Assembly (NCBI GenBank): GCA_021824175.1 | Contig: JAKALP010000004.1 | Coordinates: 62,001 to 126,000, forward strand | Origin: Deltaproteobacteria bacterium | GTDB lineage: Bacteria; Desulfobacterota; Desulfobacteria; Desulfobacterales; Desulfosarcinaceae | DNA length: 64,000 nucleotides | Direction: 5' to 3' | Part shown: positions 3,177 to 10,082 of the stretch, piece after piece | Layout: every line of letters starts with the position of its first letter | How positions within the stretch are numbered: position 1 is the stretch's first letter | The notes under the pieces: model-generated | Databases searched by the model: none | Told to the model about the DNA's origin: nothing | What the model saw: the letters and a program-made list of their open reading frames with translations, nothing else | Position numbers and translations under genes: made by a program

Positions 3177-4583
3177 TCAGCGATGGTGCCGCCGGGGCAG
3201 CTGTACCGTGAAAATGGAGCCGACCCCGGGAGTGCTCTGGGCCCGGATTTCTCCTTCGTGAGCTTCCACCACGGCCTTGACCATGCTTAAGCCCAGTCCC
3301 AACCCCTGATGGGTGGCCTGGGCGCCCCGAAACAACCGGTCCCAGATCCGATGAATCTCCTCAGAGGGGATTCCAGCGCCTGAGTCGGATACCTGCATCA
3401 GGATATGGTCCGGCTCTTTGTGGATAATTACCCGCACCAGCCCCTCCGGCGGGGTGAATTTTACGGCATTGTCCAGCAGATTGGCCAGCGCCTGACCGAT
3501 GCGATCAGCATCCGCTTCCAGCATGGCGTCAGGCGGAAGGTGGGTTTCGATTCGTATCCCCCGCTCCTCGCCGACATAACGGTACATGTCGGCCATGCTT
3601 TCCGCCACCGGCACCAGGTCCATTGGCTTAATGTCAAGGCGCATGGTGCCGGCCTGGGCTTCGGAGATGTCCATGAGCATGTGCAGCATGCGTAGAATGC
3701 GGTCCGATTCATCCATGCATTCTTGAAGCGCTTCGCGAAAGGCCGGCAGCGATTGTTCCTGTTGCAGGGCGGTTTCAGCGATATTGCGGAAGTGGGTCAT
3801 GGGCGTGCGCAGATCGTGGGCCACGCTGTCCAGCGAAGCTCTCATACCTTGAATCAACTGGTTGATTTTTTCAATCATGCGGTTGAAAAGGCGCCCCAGC
3901 TCATCGAGTTCATCGCCGGTGCGGCTAACCGGGACGCGGGCATCCATCTTCCCGGCTTCGATGGAAACCACGGTCTCGATCAGGTTACGCAATGGCCTCA
4001 AGGCGCGCCGGGAGAGAAAGGCGCCGCCGCCGACCGCCAGCAAAATCAGGGGGGCGGACACCACCAGGAAGCTCTCTTTATAGCGCCGCAGGATGGCCAA
4101 GCGATCTTCGGTGCTGATACCCACCTGAAAGAGAGTGCCGTCAGAGTGGCCGGCCGTATAGATTTCCAGGGCATAGGTGTGATCGCGATTGGGGAACGAA
4201 ATCCATTGATCGGCGGTTTGGCCCGGAAAATCTTCCAGCGCGGTGAGGTCGAAATCTTTCCAGTATTGGGGGAAGAAGACACGCCCGGGCCGCCGCGGCG
4301 ATGATATGGCCCTGGTAAAGAAAGGGTTGTTTTTGCGCAGGCTGTCGTTTTCCAGGGCCTTGTGGTCAAAGGCCGCCCGTCCGCCGATGCGATATTGTTC
4401 CTGCAGGCTCTCCACTTCTCCGGCGATCATGCGCCGGCTCTGGCGGGCCAGGGTGGTTTCCAGAAACAGGTAGGCGAAAACGTTCAATCCCACGAAGCTG
4501 AAGGTCAGCAGCAGAGAGTACGCGGCGGCGATTTTAAAACCAATGGTTTTACTGATGTTGGGAATCCGTGGCATCAATGACAT
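3177..4583 (-). CDS. Sensor histidine kinase, CusS-like
   Basis: A 468-residue inner-membrane sensor kinase. Membrane helix 1 is near residues 10-38 (FKIAAAYSLLLTFSFVGLNVFAYLFL), followed by a periplasmic sensor loop of about 125 residues. Helix 2 is FLVVSAPLILLAVGGGAFL, then HAMP, HisKA with phospho-His in DSVAHDLRTPMTHFRN, and HATPase_c with NLLDNAVKFTPP, DSGAGIP and GLGLGLSMVKAVVE. Its layout matches CusS/CopS/heavy-metal sensor kinases. The start overlaps the upstream response regulator gene by 35 bp, without its own clear ribosome site, which suggests translational coupling. The signal is unknown. Its position beside hgcAB makes a metal or metalloid signal tempting but unproven. Confidence 0.9.
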   Translation of the reverse strand: MSLMPRIPNISKTIGFKIAAAYSLLLTFSFVGLNVFAYLFLETTLARQSRRMIAGEVESLQEQYRIGGRAAFDHKALENDSLRKNNPFFTRAISSPRRPGRVFFPQYWKDFDLTALEDFPGQTADQWISFPNRDHTYALEIYTAGHSDGTLFQVGISTEDRLAILRRYKESFLVVSAPLILLAVGGGAFLSRRALRPLRNLIETVVSIEAGKMDARVPVSRTGDELDELGRLFNRMIEKINQLIQGMRASLDSVAHDLRTPMTHFRNIAETALQQEQSLPAFREALQECMDESDRILRMLHMLMDISEAQAGTMRLDIKPMDLVPVAESMADMYRYVGEERGIRIETHLPPDAMLEADADRIGQALANLLDNAVKFTPPEGLVRVIIHKEPDHILMQVSDSGAGIPSEEIHRIWDRLFRGAQATHQGLGLGLSMVKAVVEAHEGEIRAQSTPGVGSIFTVQLPRRHHR

Positions 4584-5238
4584 AGCCGATCCCGCGAATG
4601 GTTTGAATCAGTTTTTGAGTGAAGTTTTTGTCGATCTTATTGCGCAGCCGGCATACCAGCACATCCACCACATTGGTTTGGGGATCGAAATGCAGATCCC
4701 ATACATGCTCCAGGATCATGGTCTTGGAGACCGTGCGCCCGCGGTGGCGCAGCAAATACTCCAGCAAGGTGTACTCCTTGGGTTGTAAATCGACGATTTG
4801 CGTGCCCCGCCGGACTTTGCGCTCACGCAGATCCACCACCAGATCACCACAGGTCACGCGGTTGGCTTCCACCGGCTTGGCCGAGCGGCGGACCAGGGCG
4901 TTTACCCGCGCCAGCAGTTCCGCGAAGATAAACGGCTTGACCATGTAATCATCGGCGCCCTGTTCCAGACCCTTGATGCGGTCATCCACGGTGTGTTTGG
5001 CGCTGAGGACCAGAATCGGCATGTCGTTGCCCCGCCGCCGCAGCAGATCGATGAGGCTTAATCCGTCGAATTTGGGCAACATGATATCAATAATGGCCAC
5101 ATTATACTTGATCTCTTTGGTCAATTGCAGGGCCTGCTCGCTATCCTCGGTGCGATCCACCACAAACCCGGCTTCGCGCAACCCCTTTTCTACAAAGGAA
5201 GCGATCTTGATATCATCTTCCACCACTAGAACCTTCAT
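4549..5238 (-). CDS. OmpR/PhoB-family response regulator
   Basis: A 229-residue regulator with an N-terminal receiver (VVEDD pocket, phospho-Asp in AIIDIMLPKFDG, switch Lys in VKPF) and a C-terminal winged helix (LQPKEYTLLEYLLRHRGRTVSKTMILEHVWDLHFDPQTNVVDVLVCRLRNKID). It is of the CusR/CopR/PcoR type. I chose the ATG at 5238 (MKVLVVEDD) over one six codons earlier because the family begins this way. It forms an operon with the sensor kinase. Likely targets are the AACATT triple repeat at 3050-3077 and possibly its own promoter. It lies 128 bp downstream of hgcB on the same strand. Confidence 0.92.
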   Translation of the reverse strand: MKVLVVEDDIKIASFVEKGLREAGFVVDRTEDSEQALQLTKEIKYNVAIIDIMLPKFDGLSLIDLLRRRGNDMPILVLSAKHTVDDRIKGLEQGADDYMVKPFIFAELLARVNALVRRSAKPVEANRVTCGDLVVDLRERKVRRGTQIVDLQPKEYTLLEYLLRHRGRTVSKTMILEHVWDLHFDPQTNVVDVLVCRLRNKIDKNFTQKLIQTIRGIGYVIDATDSQHQ

Positions 5239-5274
5239 GGAGCCCCCGCCAGCCATTGTTTTATGTTCGCGGCA

Positions 5275-5366: not shown

Positions 5367-5657
5367 TCAGCAACACCCCGAACCGCCGCAGGAGGCTTTT
5401 TCCTTGCCTTTAATCCAGGTTTGAATGATGTAGCTGGCGCAGCCCACTCCCGGCGTCACGGTGATCGCTTCAGTGGGACAATTCTTAGCGCACGCCCCGC
5501 ATTCCATACACCCATCTCGATCCACGATCTGGGCCTTGCGATGATCCATGGCCAGAACGCCGTGAGGGCATACTTCGGTGCAGATCGCGCAGCCTACGCA
5601 CTTGCTTGCATCCAGGGTCAGGGTGACGACATTATCCAGATAACGCAAGGTTTTCAT
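5367..5657 (-). CDS. hgcB: HgcB, ferredoxin partner of mercury methylation
   Basis: A 96-residue dicluster ferredoxin. Two CxxCxxCxxxC motifs (C20, C23, C26, C30 and C50, C53, C56, C60) bind two [4Fe-4S] clusters. Beyond these it has the marks that separate HgcB from ordinary ferredoxins: a lone Cys73 in PGVGCASY and a C-terminal Cys pair (C95, C96) after GGSG. In the known system HgcB reduces the corrinoid of HgcA and is thought to deliver Hg(II) through these thiols. Both are needed for methylmercury formation. It follows hgcA by 24 bp on the same strand, with TGGAG upstream of the ATG. Length and cysteine positions match the family closely. Confidence 0.95.
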   Translation of the reverse strand: MKTLRYLDNVVTLTLDASKCVGCAICTEVCPHGVLAMDHRKAQIVDRDGCMECGACAKNCPTEAITVTPGVGCASYIIQTWIKGKEKASCGGSGCC

Positions 5658-5681
5658 GAGGTTTACTCCATCTTATTGTCT

Positions 5682-6908
5682 TTATACTCCAATGAACGCG
5701 CTGGTCACCCATATCAGCGCCGCCGCCAAGGCCGCTAAGGCCTGCACGGGCATATAGCGGCGCATCTCTTTTTCTACTCCCGATGGTGAAGTAAAAGGAG
5801 TGGACCCCGTAAAATTCATGGCCAGGAAGGAACTCAAGGCCATGGTGAGCAACACCAGGGCCAGGGCAGACCACCGGGTCAGCAGCGGTGTGCCCCATAA
5901 TCCGGCCGCCAGCGCCCCTCCGGCAAACCCTCCGGCCAGCATGCCTTTAATCGCGAAGCTCCGGCCCGGAACCCATGGCAGCAGGGCCGGCACCAGCACA
6001 CACCCGGCGAAGATGCCGGTCAAGGTGGCCTCGACCGCCAGAAGTCCGCGTTGCCAGGCGGCCCCAAACGAAAAGATGGAGGGGCCGATGCCGGAAATCA
6101 CCGCAATGGCGGCCAGGGTTCGCCAAAGATATTTGCGCAGCAGCGTAATTTCCACCGGCACCAGCACCAGGCGTTCGGTCAGGGAAAAAGTAATCCGGCG
6201 CATGGCGCCATCGGCTTTCAGGCCGCTGGATAGAAACGCGCTAAGGTCTGAGGCCCGGATCGGTCCCCACACCACCTCAAATCCACATTCTTTCTTCACC
6301 CGGCCGCCGGCCACGCCCGTGGCGCCGAGTTGGGGCAGGATCAAGCGGCGGTGGCGCACCACCCGATCCAATTGGGTCTGTTTGACCCGTTGCACGAGCT
6401 CGTCGGTGCCGAAGCTGCCCTTGCCAGCCGCGCACCATACATTGATGCCCCGGGTGTCTAGAATCAGCAACCAGGCATTGACCTCTGTCAGAGAGGCGCG
6501 CAAATGATCGAAGCTCAACTTGTAGTTGGCCGTCACCAACACTGGAGAGTCATGGTCTGGCTGGCCCACCGCGTAAAGTCCAGGCGCTACTTTATAGTTG
6601 CTGCGGCCATAGCCCAGCCGCACGCTAAGGGTCCCGAGACGGTCGGACCGCTCCAGTCGCGTTTTGATCTTAGGGACAGGACCCGCGGGTGTATGGACAA
6701 AGCCCTCCACAAAACCGCACAGTGTGTACCCCGGCCGTTCAAAGGGGTTGCTGGGTGGCCCGGCCGGTGGCCCACAACAGGGTTCATCTTTGATCGAAGG
6801 CCGGTAAATCGGCAGCATTTCCAACCCAGGGCCATGGTCCTGGGATTCGGCGCCCCCCAAGGTACAGCCGCAGGTGTGTTTAGAAAGATCATTCAAAAGA
6901 TCATTCAT
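5682..6908 (-). CDS. hgcA: HgcA, corrinoid mercury methyltransferase
   Basis: A 408-residue membrane protein. The soluble half holds the HgcA signature NVWCAAGK (residues 156-163), in which Cys159 is the lower ligand of cobalt and lets the corrinoid pass a methyl group to Hg(II). Five membrane helices follow (for example TLAAIAVISGIGPSIFSF, GLLAVEATLTGIFAGCVLVPALL, SALALVLLTMALSSFLAMNFTG, QALAALAAALIWVTSAFIGV), as expected. The ATG at 6908 overlaps the arsR stop codon and has AAGGAGG 8 nt upstream. An in-frame ATG at 7001 would run far into arsR and is rejected. The N-terminal stretch before the corrinoid domain is long and has Cys pairs (C13/C15, C44/C45) in HTCGCTLGG and EPCCGPP. It forms an operon with arsR and hgcB. 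Confidence 0.95.
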   Translation of the reverse strand: MNDLLNDLSKHTCGCTLGGAESQDHGPGLEMLPIYRPSIKDEPCCGPPAGPPSNPFERPGYTLCGFVEGFVHTPAGPVPKIKTRLERSDRLGTLSVRLGYGRSNYKVAPGLYAVGQPDHDSPVLVTANYKLSFDHLRASLTEVNAWLLILDTRGINVWCAAGKGSFGTDELVQRVKQTQLDRVVRHRRLILPQLGATGVAGGRVKKECGFEVVWGPIRASDLSAFLSSGLKADGAMRRITFSLTERLVLVPVEITLLRKYLWRTLAAIAVISGIGPSIFSFGAAWQRGLLAVEATLTGIFAGCVLVPALLPWVPGRSFAIKGMLAGGFAGGALAAGLWGTPLLTRWSALALVLLTMALSSFLAMNFTGSTPFTSPSGVEKEMRRYMPVQALAALAAALIWVTSAFIGV

Positions 6909-7215
6909 TGGGCGCACCTCCTTGGCCGAACTGAGCGGCCATGGACCTGAACTCCTCAATGACCTGCCGGTCGAGGCAGTAACAGGTTCGGGGGCCATCA
7001 ATGGCGTCCTTGACCAGGCCCGCTTCCTTCAAGATCTTTAAATGCTGGCTGACCGTGGATTGGGCCAGTGGCAGCACCTCCACAATCTGACCACAAATAC
7101 ACTGATTTAACTGGTTAAGGTGATCCACAATCCGCACCCTGGCCGGATGCGCCAGGGCTTTGCAAATTGAGGCAAATCGTTCGGCATTTAAAATGGTTTT
7201 GGTTTTGGGTCCCAC
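6901..7215 (-). CDS. ArsR-family thiol-type repressor of the hgc operon
   Basis: A 104-residue winged-helix regulator if read from GTG at 7215, which follows GGAG by 6 nt and gives the usual ArsR length. Longer in-frame reading to 7374 would cross the promoter and operator at 7240-7280. The helix-turn-helix is PLAQSTVSQHLKILKEAGLV. Just before it is CIC (C39, C41), equivalent in place to the CVC arsenic-binding pair of ArsR. A second pair, CYC (C78, C80), lies in the wing region. It therefore probably senses a thiophilic metal or metalloid such as As(III), Sb(III) or Hg(II) by losing DNA affinity. It overlaps hgcA by 8 bp, so repressor and methylation genes are co-transcribed. Confidence 0.88.
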   Translation of the reverse strand: MGPKTKTILNAERFASICKALAHPARVRIVDHLNQLNQCICGQIVEVLPLAQSTVSQHLKILKEAGLVKDAIDGPRTCYCLDRQVIEEFRSMAAQFGQGGAPNE

Positions 7216-7239
7216 ACGAAGCTCCAAATATGAGGTAAA

Positions 7240-7280
7240 ATCGTAAATCGACGATAAACGATTATCAAAAGGGTTGTCAA
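7240..7280 (-). promoter_or_regulatory. Promoter and near-palindromic ArsR operator of arsR-hgcAB
   Basis: On the minus strand the -35 TTGACA (7275-7280) is a perfect consensus. A weak -10 TTATCG (7252-7257) lies 17 bp away. Overlapping it is a 23-bp near-palindrome centred on 7251: ATCGT, AA, ATCG, A, CGAT, AA, ACGAT (7240-7262), symmetric except for the two AA steps. A repressor bound here would block polymerase. The site is 25 bp upstream of the GTG start of arsR, so autoregulation is likely. Confidence 0.65.
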
Positions 7281-7872: not shown

Positions 7873-8949
7873 ATGACGATGACCGGAGGCGTGAATGATC
7901 TTCCCCCCACGCAAGGGGAAGCGGAAAAGGAATCCGAAGTCCAATGGGCGGATGAATACGGCCCTAAATCACAACAGGAGGCGGAACCGCCGCAGGACTG
8001 GCAAGTACTGTTGAATGAGATGATGGCGAAAATCATGGCGCAAGGCGAAGAAGCAAAAGAGTCCGCCTTTTTCGCGCGGCTTCTGAATGCCGGCCATTTA
8101 ATGAGCCAGTTAAATCAATTTTGGAATTCTACCATTCAGGATTTACCCAAACTCTATCAAGGCAATGGCGATAGCGCTCAATCAAAGGAAATTATTAATA
8201 AGTGGATCGAACGCTACAAGAATATCTTTAAGGAAGAAGAGTCGCCGCTGTCCCAGCAAGCGGAAGAAATCTTCTCATTTTGGCTGCATATGACTCAAAT
8301 GAGCCAGACGGCCCATGAGCCCGTCTGGAACCATTGGCTGGCGGCCTTGCCCCAATGGAATGAGCAGTCCGAAAAACTGGCCAAAGGAGATCTGGAGGCT
8401 TTGGATGAAAGATTGAGCCTCTGGAAGGAGCTCTATAATGAAACCTTGGGCAAGTTTCTGCGGATGCCGGCCCTCGGATTGACCAAGCAGCATACGGAGA
8501 AGATCACGGGGACCTTTGCCGAATTCGCGCAGCTGATGTCATCGCTGCCGTATTTGTACCAATATCTGTATAATACCGAAATAGAGGCCTTTAAAGAGGT
8601 CTTTGACCGGATACATCAGTTGGACCTCAAGGAGATGACGCCGGAAGCAATGCGCGAGATCTATAAGATCTGGTTGACCACCAATGAGAAGACATTTCAT
8701 CGGCTCTTTAAACAACCCGATTTTTGCAACACCATGGGGGAAGTATTGAATTGCATGTTCCGGTTCAAAAAGCAGATGAATGATTTGACCGCCAAATGGT
8801 GTGAAGCCATGTCTATCCCCTCCGGGCGGGATCATGATCAAATGGCCATGGCCATTCAGGACCTGCGCCGTAAAGTCCACGCCCAGCAAAAAACCATATC
8901 CGCCCTGCAGCAAAAGCTGGCGCGCCATCAAAGCAAGGAGGCTTCATGA
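7873..8949 (+). CDS. phaE: PhaE, accessory subunit of class III PHA synthase
   Basis: A 358-residue, mostly alpha-helical protein that pairs with PhaC to form the active class III polyhydroxyalkanoate synthase on the storage granule. Its N terminus is acidic and probably disordered. The middle is rich in Trp, Gln and Met helices, and the C terminus is a coiled-coil-like segment (RRKVHAQQKTISALQQKLARHQ). PhaE proteins are poorly conserved and have no catalytic motif. The call rests on length, on composition and above all on the 4-bp overlap with a clear class III phaC. A strong GGAGGAGG precedes the ATG. Confidence 0.85.
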   Translation: MTMTGGVNDLPPTQGEAEKESEVQWADEYGPKSQQEAEPPQDWQVLLNEMMAKIMAQGEEAKESAFFARLLNAGHLMSQLNQFWNSTIQDLPKLYQGNGDSAQSKEIINKWIERYKNIFKEEESPLSQQAEEIFSFWLHMTQMSQTAHEPVWNHWLAALPQWNEQSEKLAKGDLEALDERLSLWKELYNETLGKFLRMPALGLTKQHTEKITGTFAEFAQLMSSLPYLYQYLYNTEIEAFKEVFDRIHQLDLKEMTPEAMREIYKIWLTTNEKTFHRLFKQPDFCNTMGEVLNCMFRFKKQMNDLTAKWCEAMSIPSGRDHDQMAMAIQDLRRKVHAQQKTISALQQKLARHQSKEAS

Positions 8950-10082
8950 TGCAACTGCCATTTGAAAAAAACGCCTTGAGCTATTTTAAGGAGATGGAGC
9001 AATACTCCCATCGGCTCTTCAATATCACCGATACCCTGTTGAAACAGCAAAAGGTCGATATCGCCACCGCCCCCAAGGAGCTGGTGTTTCAAGAAGATAT
9101 TGTGAGCCTCTATCATTTCAAATCGCCGCGGGCCATTCGGTGCCCGGTGCCCTTGCTGATCAATTATGCCCTGGTGAATCGCGAGACCATGATGGATCTC
9201 GAGGAAGGAAAAAGCCTGATCCGAAACCTGCTGACCCTGGGCATCGATATCTATATGATCGTCTGGGGCTATCCCTCGCGGGCCGAGCGCTATGTCACCA
9301 TGGATGACTACATCGATATGTATATTGATGATTGCGTGGAGTATATCCGTTCCGAAAAAAGCGTGGAGCGCGTCAATCTCATGGGGGTTTGCCAGGGCGG
9401 GACGTTTGCCGCCATTTATGCCGCGCTCTATCCGGAAAAGGTGCGCAACTTGATTACCATGGTGGCCCCCATCGACTTTCATACCGACGATGGGTTGCTC
9501 AATATCTGGGCCCGCTACCTGGATGCCGACGTCATGGTCGATGCTCTGGGCAATATCTCGGGAGATCTGATGAACCTGGTCTTCCTGATGCTCAAGCCCT
9601 ATCAATTGATGATGGACAAATATGTGGGCTTGTTGGAGAGCGCTGAAAACCCGGCCATCATCGAAAATTTTCTGCGCATGGAGAAATGGATCTTCGATAG
9701 TCCGGACCAGGCCGGAGAAGCATTCCGGAAATTTGTCAATGAATTATATAAGAAGAACAATTTGATCAAGGGCCAATTGAATATCGGCGGCCGCATGGTG
9801 GATTTAAAAAAGATCGATATGCCGGTGCTCAATATCTTCGCGGAGCACGACCATTTGGTGCCACCTTGTTCTTCCAAGGCCTTCGAGCAATATACTTCTT
9901 CCAAGGATTTTACCAATAAATGCTTCCCCGTCGGTCATATTGGCGTCTATGTCAGCTCAAAGACCCAAAAAGATCTGGCGCCGTTAATCGCCAATTGGCT
10001 GATTGATCGTAATCCCAAGACGCCCAATAAGGTGCGCATGCGAGCCAAGGCAGGCATGGGTAAAGAATTGCGTTCGACGTGA
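8946..10082 (+). CDS. phaC: PhaC, class III polyhydroxyalkanoate synthase
   Basis: A 378-residue alpha/beta-hydrolase-fold polymerase that joins (R)-3-hydroxyacyl-CoA units into PHA. The lipase-like box GVCQGG carries the nucleophile Cys149. Asp302 lies in AEHDHLVP and His331 in VGHIGVYV. These three numbers equal those I recall for the class III enzyme of Allochromatium vinosum. Its short length and the PhaE partner place it in class III rather than class I or II. It overlaps phaE by four bases, so translation is coupled. The cell therefore stores carbon as polyester; the monomer may come from beta-oxidation intermediates. Confidence 0.95.
   Translation: MMQLPFEKNALSYFKEMEQYSHRLFNITDTLLKQQKVDIATAPKELVFQEDIVSLYHFKSPRAIRCPVPLLINYALVNRETMMDLEEGKSLIRNLLTLGIDIYMIVWGYPSRAERYVTMDDYIDMYIDDCVEYIRSEKSVERVNLMGVCQGGTFAAIYAALYPEKVRNLITMVAPIDFHTDDGLLNIWARYLDADVMVDALGNISGDLMNLVFLMLKPYQLMMDKYVGLLESAENPAIIENFLRMEKWIFDSPDQAGEAFRKFVNELYKKNNLIKGQLNIGGRMVDLKKIDMPVLNIFAEHDHLVPPCSSKAFEQYTSSKDFTNKCFPVGHIGVYVSSKTQKDLAPLIANWLIDRNPKTPNKVRMRAKAGMGKELRST

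Follow-up and report, generated by a model that had tools for sequence, protein, structure and literature searches.

The stretch of DNA analyzed here, which we call the window, comprises 64,000 nucleotides of a Desulfosarcinaceae genome of 6.07 Mb and 99.5% completeness (Deltaproteobacteria bacterium, GCA_021824175.1; contig JAKALP010000004.1, our C29:62001-126000). It carries on its minus strand, in the order arsR, hgcA, hgcB, a regulator gene and the two genes of the mercury-methylation system, preceded by a promoter whose -10 box lies inside a predicted palindromic operator. The features are as follows:

7275-7280, minus strand: -35 box TTGACA (consensus scan)
7251-7256, minus strand: -10 hexamer TATCGT, inside the palindrome
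7239-7263, minus strand: predicted palindromic operator AATCGTTTATCGTCGATTTACGATT, with the palindrome AATCGTTTATCG-T-CGATTTACGATT
7240-7255, minus strand: operator core ATCGT-N6-ACGAT, overlapping the -10 hexamer
7280-7240, minus strand: composite promoter-operator TTGACA-N18-TATCGT-N6-ACGAT
6901-7215, minus strand: arsR, 104 amino acids from GTG 7215, a winged-helix ArsR/SmtB repressor with Cys39-x-Cys41 and Cys78-x-Cys80
beginning at 6923, minus strand: Shine-Dalgarno sequence of hgcA, AAGGAGGT (read directly from the sequence)
6901-6908, minus strand: region shared by the end of arsR and the start of hgcA, exactly 8 bp (read directly from the sequence)
5682-6908, minus strand: hgcA, 408 amino acids from ATG at 6908, a corrinoid-binding domain plus a membrane domain
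5367-5657, minus strand: hgcB, a ferredoxin of 96 amino acids with two 4Fe-4S motifs, Cys73 and a terminal Cys95-Cys96 pair

Judged from its sequence, arsR-hgcA-hgcB is a genuine, functional-looking operon, and chance is excluded because the family scores of its proteins exceed the cut-offs. HgcA reaches 443.2 bits, the curated cut-off being 275 (NF040863; residues 78-405 matched), and 58.8 bits against 24.8 for PF03599, with only 199.9 bits (cut-off 285) for the HgcAB-like fusion model; HgcB scores 129.9 bits against a curated cut-off of 99 (NF040864), and ArsR 70.8 against 55 (NF033788) and 50 against 22 (PF01022), its winged-helix domain also giving a fold match from a structure model. The initial annotation had named HgcA and HgcB from their motifs and proposed profile searches; with the profiles run, both identities hold, as does the placing of an ArsR-type gene at the head of the unit, upstream of and co-directional with hgcA. 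The motifs are likewise where they had been read: the cap-helix motif NVWCAAGK occupies HgcA residues 156-163, with Cys159 as the corrinoid-facing cysteine, and does not vary across eight aligned HgcA sequences, and the HgcB cysteines (20/23/26/30, 50/53/56/60, 73, 90, 95 and 96) include two CxxCxxCxxxCP 4Fe-4S motifs, Cys73 and the terminal pair. Four of the five membrane helices attributed to HgcA appear as peaks above 1.6 in a crude hydropathy scan, and the evidence for the fifth is the family match, which is almost complete (to profile position 324 of 325). The overlap of arsR and hgcA does measure 8 bp, but it is not remarkable, for ArsR frames lie close to hgcA frames in many relatives, at distances of -195 to 391 bp between stop-to-stop frames (hence not exact gene gaps). 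Position 7280, the upper bound given in the annotation, is not the start of arsR but the first base of the -35 box; by eye the best candidate start is GTG 7215, with GGAG upstream of it. The frame stays open up to GTG 7374, yet that stretch crosses the operator.

The promoter itself is sigma-70-like, with TTGACA, an 18-bp spacer and TATCGT (10 of 12 consensus matches); a consensus scan of the region gave 6 promoter-like sites against 3.4 expected. The conserved palindrome over the -10 box, together with an overlapping, co-directional arsR, supports the predicted repression of the whole unit. The exact core has two copies in the window's genome, and because the other one sits inside a coding frame (L127), the operator appears to be private to arsR-hgcAB there; a wider regulon was sought in this genome and was not found. 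Extra exact palindromes in family relatives (11 among the matches listed, L156-L165 and L168) were judged by eye to be chance, most of them lying inside long frames. No known RNA element was detected in the window at gathering thresholds.

HgcA begins with an N-terminal extension, residues 1-77, which the curated model leaves uncovered, its match beginning at residue 78. It carries a CxC and the sequence CCGPPAGPP, with CCG at residues 44-46. Among 65 untruncated homologues, a rough text search found CCG in the extension of 36, of which a few are probably wrong frames, and some others have CCPP repeats there; the extension is a possible extra thiol site.

Operator conservation at hgcA loci and across the order

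Our first set held 93 hgcA loci (from the window, 12 family genomes and 80 named contigs; three of the 93 are duplicates), at 39 of which, one a duplicate, an ArsR-family frame stands directly upstream of hgcA. The core is exact at 30 of these 39 loci and agrees in at least nine of ten positions at 38; the sole exception, L097, has an unrelated ArsR. In control stretches of the same loci the exact core occurred 0 times in 1496 and at least nine positions 8 times in 1496, a control that is post hoc because the motif was derived from those same loci. When distinct loci with and without arsR were compared under one rule for both groups (11 of the 93 having been dropped as duplicates or for a short upstream region), the exact core was found at 29 of 37 with arsR and 3 of 45 without it (Fisher p 1e-11, which is nominal, the loci being related). 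A -35-like hexamer (at least 4 of 6 matches) precedes the first half-site hexamer by 16-18 bp at 39 of 40 operator loci, compared with 11.5% of random positions.

The order-wide search used the pattern TTGAC, 18-20 bases, ATCGT-N6-ACGAT in 389 genomes, some of which overlap the first set. It returned 61 composite sites in 56 genomes and 20 families (families counted by hand), and a single match to the reversed-pattern control was noticed, in G541. Up to 2.5 kb downstream of each composite was scanned with profiles built from alignments of this analysis: the composite is followed by arsR and then hgcA in 43 cases, by hgcA without arsR in 5, by ArsR without hgcA in 6 (one of which, L226, runs off its contig behind arsR) and by neither in 7, so that hgcA lies downstream of 48 of the 61 composites, in 47 genomes. 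Among the seven with neither gene, three (L248-L250) belong to the divergent side of a shared palindrome, L223 leaves its contig after 209 bp, L224 lies inside a sensor-kinase frame, and L203 and L247 either precede other genes or are chance. A scan of the phylum with a narrower spacer range (one base short, so that the window's own site falls outside it) gave 5 composites in 5 of 395 genomes; a profile check of these loci (L189-L193) yielded one ArsR match and no HgcA.

Several loci depart from this pattern. Regulation of hgcAB seems to differ even inside one genus, because L034, L035 and L045, from the window's genus or family, have hgcA with neither a recognized upstream arsR nor the operator. 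In genus g309, L248 carries arsR-hgcA-hgcB together with a nuclease-like gene, and a divergent gene of rubrerythrin type shares the palindrome; L249 and L250 have arsR followed by a nuclease-like gene (that of L250 recognized by eye) and the same divergent gene but lack hgcAB in between, which looks like a loss of the pair. At L222:1470-2587(+) an ArsR of similar type (CACG...TYYC) has the composite within the 5' part of its open frame, and a DSBA-like thiol oxidoreductase gene follows in place of hgcAB.

Unlinked regulators, arsenic-type loci and flanking genes

In five genomes (G580, G504, G452, G595 and G445) the composite precedes hgcA with no arsR adjacent. Four of the five encode elsewhere an ArsR that scores 82-102 bits with a model of the hgcA-linked ArsR proteins; the best score in the fifth, G595 (79% complete), is 55.7 bits. 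The palindrome is found upstream of the unlinked arsR as well, exact in G580 and G504 and at 9 of 10 positions in G452, and in G445, where arsR is present as two contig-end pieces (L350 and L170), an exact copy lies about 180 bp before the frame. Best ArsR scores in hgcA-bearing genomes with neither the operator nor an arsR in cis were 43.6 (G002), 59.8 (G004) and 62.8 bits (G029). Palindrome and regulator thus tend to co-occur even when unlinked, in what is a small sample. The start-bearing arsR piece of G445 is itself preceded by a nitrilase-like frame.

The same palindrome occurs at genes of arsenic type. Two genomes of one genus (G640 and G584) have arsM immediately behind the composite (283.3 and 285.4 bits, cut-off 263), followed in turn by an ArsR with the same CVCG...CYC motif, and both have a further exact core before a canonical-type arsR and an ArsP_1 permease gene (228.2 and 225.4 bits). 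Both G580 and G504 have a second exact core, situated between arsR and a permease gene of the ArsP_1 family. The two permeases score 138.4 and 165.2 bits (cut-off 32.3) but do not reach the thresholds of the named NCBI transporter families. Each of these two genomes has the exact palindrome in three places: hgcA, arsR and the ArsP_1 gene. The arsM and ArsP_1 loci (L194, L195, L324, L325, L344 and L345) share the exact ATCGT-N6-ACGAT core of the window, and the arsM loci have the composite promoter as well; in the place that hgcAB has in the window they carry genes for an arsenite methyltransferase or a permease, and they are rare in the sample. From their sequences, hgcAB, arsM and ArsP_1 genes have the palindrome in common in a few lineages. 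In both L194:660-1498(-) and L195:660-1498(-) a TGA interrupts the arsM frame at one identical position; with selenocysteine at that codon, the frame would reach roughly the full length of ArsM, and several further arsM matches in the order contain one or two TGA each.

The cysteines of the hgcA-linked regulators are also conserved. In an alignment of 34 hgcA-linked ArsR proteins, Cys39, Cys41 and Cys80 are present in all 34, Cys78 in 26 and Cys18 in 23. Five of the 39 loci stood outside this alignment: L097 (unrelated), L075 (a duplicate), L040 (a broken frame), and L043 and L085 (close copies, both of which retain the three invariant cysteines). The arsM-linked ArsR proteins of L194 and L195 keep the same thiol set. 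Canonical As(III)-responsive ArsR repressors (PDB 6j05, 6j0e) are among the closest known systems, and those of the E. coli type have a CxCxxC site in helix 3. This motif was not found in the window's ArsR, whose CICGQI gives a CxC only: Ile at residue 44 takes the place of the third cysteine of the E. coli-type site, and a second CxC is present in the last wing strand, at residues 78-80.

Two further features flank the operon:

3177-5256, minus strand: two-component pair similar to copper/heavy-metal sensors, co-directional with hgcB and 110 bp downstream of it
7873-10082, plus strand: phaE and phaC (class III polyhydroxyalkanoate synthase), divergent to arsR

We considered whether the two-component pair (4549-5256 and 3177-4583) belongs to the unit and rejected this, no such regulator-kinase pair being found beside hgcB on its strand at the 12 family loci compared. 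The sequence of L040 stops about 400 bp past hgcB, and at L037 hgcB has a kinase of weak similarity (33.7 bits) next to it on the opposite strand. The pair is Cop/Cus/Czc-like but falls below the curated cut-offs (248.1 against 279.2 and 225.1 against 292.55). PhaC scores 469.4 against a cut-off of 365.3, and PhaE 79.2, below NCBI's 154.95, but 102.5 with the Pfam model, above its cut-off of 25.7.

Proposed control of hgcAB and its possible native role

We consider it probable that ArsR is an autorepressor of arsR-hgcAB that acts on the palindrome over the -10 box and is freed by a thiophilic ligand, most likely a trivalent arsenical; DNA binding, ligand, derepression and methylation are all steps that we infer. 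An ArsR homodimer would bind ATCGT-N6-ACGAT, covering the -10 box of the TTGACA promoter, and so shut off its own gene together with hgcAB. The cysteines of ArsR would then bind a thiophilic ligand, for which trivalent arsenic or a methylated trivalent arsenical is the most likely candidate and Hg(II) or a sulfur species a less likely one; the candidate residues are Cys39, Cys41 and Cys80, plus Cys78 in this branch. The ligand-bound protein would leave the operator and hgcAB would be made, whereupon HgcA (through its corrinoid) and HgcB (as ferredoxin) could methylate Hg(II) when it is present. That the ligand may be a thiophilic metal or metalloid is suggested by the cysteines, by the shared operators and by work on Pseudodesulfovibrio mercurii ND132 as cited by others.

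The operon type and its ArsR control are already known from ND132. Its hgcAB responds to arsenic via ArsR (Gionfriddo 2023, as cited in the available text of PMC10349881 and PMC13362967), which bears out the ArsR-like control in Pseudodesulfovibrio that the initial annotation had mentioned, and arsR was reported upstream of and co-transcribed with hgcA (Goni-Urriza 2020, as cited in excerpts of PMC10349881 and PMC7438021). As far as the citing papers (PMC10349881, PMC12953829 and PMC13362967), available in part, describe it, ND132 likewise has an ArsR-type regulator upstream of hgcA and the HgcA and HgcB motifs; the cluster cysteines and Cys73 of its HgcB are numbered as in the window, whereas the terminal pair is 94/95 in ND132 and 95/96 in the window (PMC7305189, partial text). 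The ArsR cysteine motif of the window, together with an exact palindrome, recurs in a Pseudodesulfovibrio metagenome-assembled genome (MAG; L115). The window differs from the ND132 system in the Cys-containing N-terminal extension of its HgcA and in the 8-bp overlap of its genes. What the present analysis adds is the conserved composite, the variants with unlinked regulators and the palindrome common to arsM and ArsP_1 genes; the operator is described in no paper found by our literature search, which did not extend to the primary ND132 study.

Several observations weigh against this reading. Most hgcA genes in the order sample lack the exact composite, because 162 of the 389 genomes encode an HgcA above the cut-off (12 of 30 in the family) and only 47 have the composite before hgcA, and the motif was read from related loci on which its enrichment was first counted. 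The fixed three-thiolate site is not general, judged from the unlinked ArsR proteins that go with the palindrome: Cys41 is replaced by Thr and Cys80 by Gln in G504 and G452, and Cys80 by Arg in G580, losses that reduce our confidence. Nor do the palindromes before unlinked arsR genes have the promoter spacing of 16-18 bp (25, 25, none and 21 bp in G580, G504, G452 and G445), and among the arsenic-type sites the ArsP_1 palindromes lack it too, so that only those at arsM are composites. Among the arsM loci, drawn from the 110 of 389 genomes that pass the ArsM cut-off, the exact core was found at 3 of 72 (one of them, L289, without a -35 box) under a rule that placed the palindrome 60-450 bp before the GLGCG motif and would miss an arsM deeper in an operon; on this count we rejected arsM as a general partner. 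The window's genome has no ArsM above the cut-off, and ArsP_1 permeases include Cu/Zn exporters. In the literature, arsR was found within three open reading frames upstream in 14 of 31 confirmed-methylator genomes, none of 35 paddy contigs had an arsR (both from the available part of PMC10349881), and blue-hole MAGs have arsR away from hgcAB (PMC12953829).

Some of these observations fit another explanation, somewhat doubtful but a real possibility, namely that the palindrome is the generic site of one large ArsR branch, kept by a conserved recognition helix and implying no shared role. The rarity of arsM under the palindrome and its presence with unlinked regulators of altered cysteine content are both as expected on this account, as is the occurrence in G584 and G640 of another ArsR type (CVCE, with the helix AQSTASKHLK) behind the exact palindrome before the permease gene. 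Even so, a common site would still mean possible shared or cross regulation within one genome, as the exact copies at hgcA, arsR and the ArsP_1 gene in both G580 and G504 suggest.

It is a good deal less likely that the repressor responds through its cysteines to mercury, as Hg(II) or bound to a thiol, or to a sulfur or redox signal, the link to arsenic being incidental. Cysteine pairs also bind Hg, Hg is the substrate of HgcAB, and SqrR and BigR are among the structural neighbors of the ArsR model, and BigR is a weak profile match (31.6 against a cut-off of 155). Against this, arsenic is the inducer in ND132 according to the accessible parts of the citing papers (PMC10349881, PMC13362967), and a few relatives have the palindrome in front of arsM or of ArsP_1 permease genes. 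No mer-type gene was recognized at the 13 composites without hgcA, where lists of open reading frames were inspected by eye and, for some, profiles were used.

A SahR-like regulator answering S-adenosylhomocysteine (SAH), a compound that the ND132 study reportedly discussed, would fit S-adenosylmethionine (SAM) as the methyl donor of HgcAB, and we regard it as very improbable. SAM is reported as the methyl donor (available text of PMC11588087), and SahR too is an ArsR-family repressor in delta-proteobacteria, with a 20-bp palindromic site; its targets are SAM-cycle genes (PMC4239095, from partial text), whereas none was recognized behind the composites read here (by eye, at the 13 without hgcA, with no profile search for such genes), and an SAH sensor would not need the three cysteines invariant in all 34 hgcA-linked ArsR proteins, of which the unlinked relatives lose one or two.

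For the native role of hgcAB beyond Hg methylation, competing hypotheses are listed in PMC10349881 (as far as its available text goes). The palindrome that hgcAB has in common with arsenic-type genes in a few relatives hints at a possible original role of hgcAB. One reading, which we hold to be unlikely as a whole, is that hgcAB is native to an arsenical-response regulon in which one ArsR branch and ATCGT-N6-ACGAT would govern hgcAB, arsR, ArsP_1-family permeases and, in one genus, arsM; HgcAB would then have been selected to process, or protect against, a trivalent or methylated arsenical, with Hg methylation as a side reaction.

With so sharply defined an operator, the regulon can be searched for in any genome and the native role of hgcAB becomes testable, and G504 and G580, with palindromes at hgcA, an unlinked arsR and an ArsP_1 gene, are natural test cases. 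Control of the kind proposed here would suggest that arsenic, not mercury, sets the methylmercury-forming capacity in some of these bacteria, a point of relevance to the prediction of methylmercury formation in sediments.

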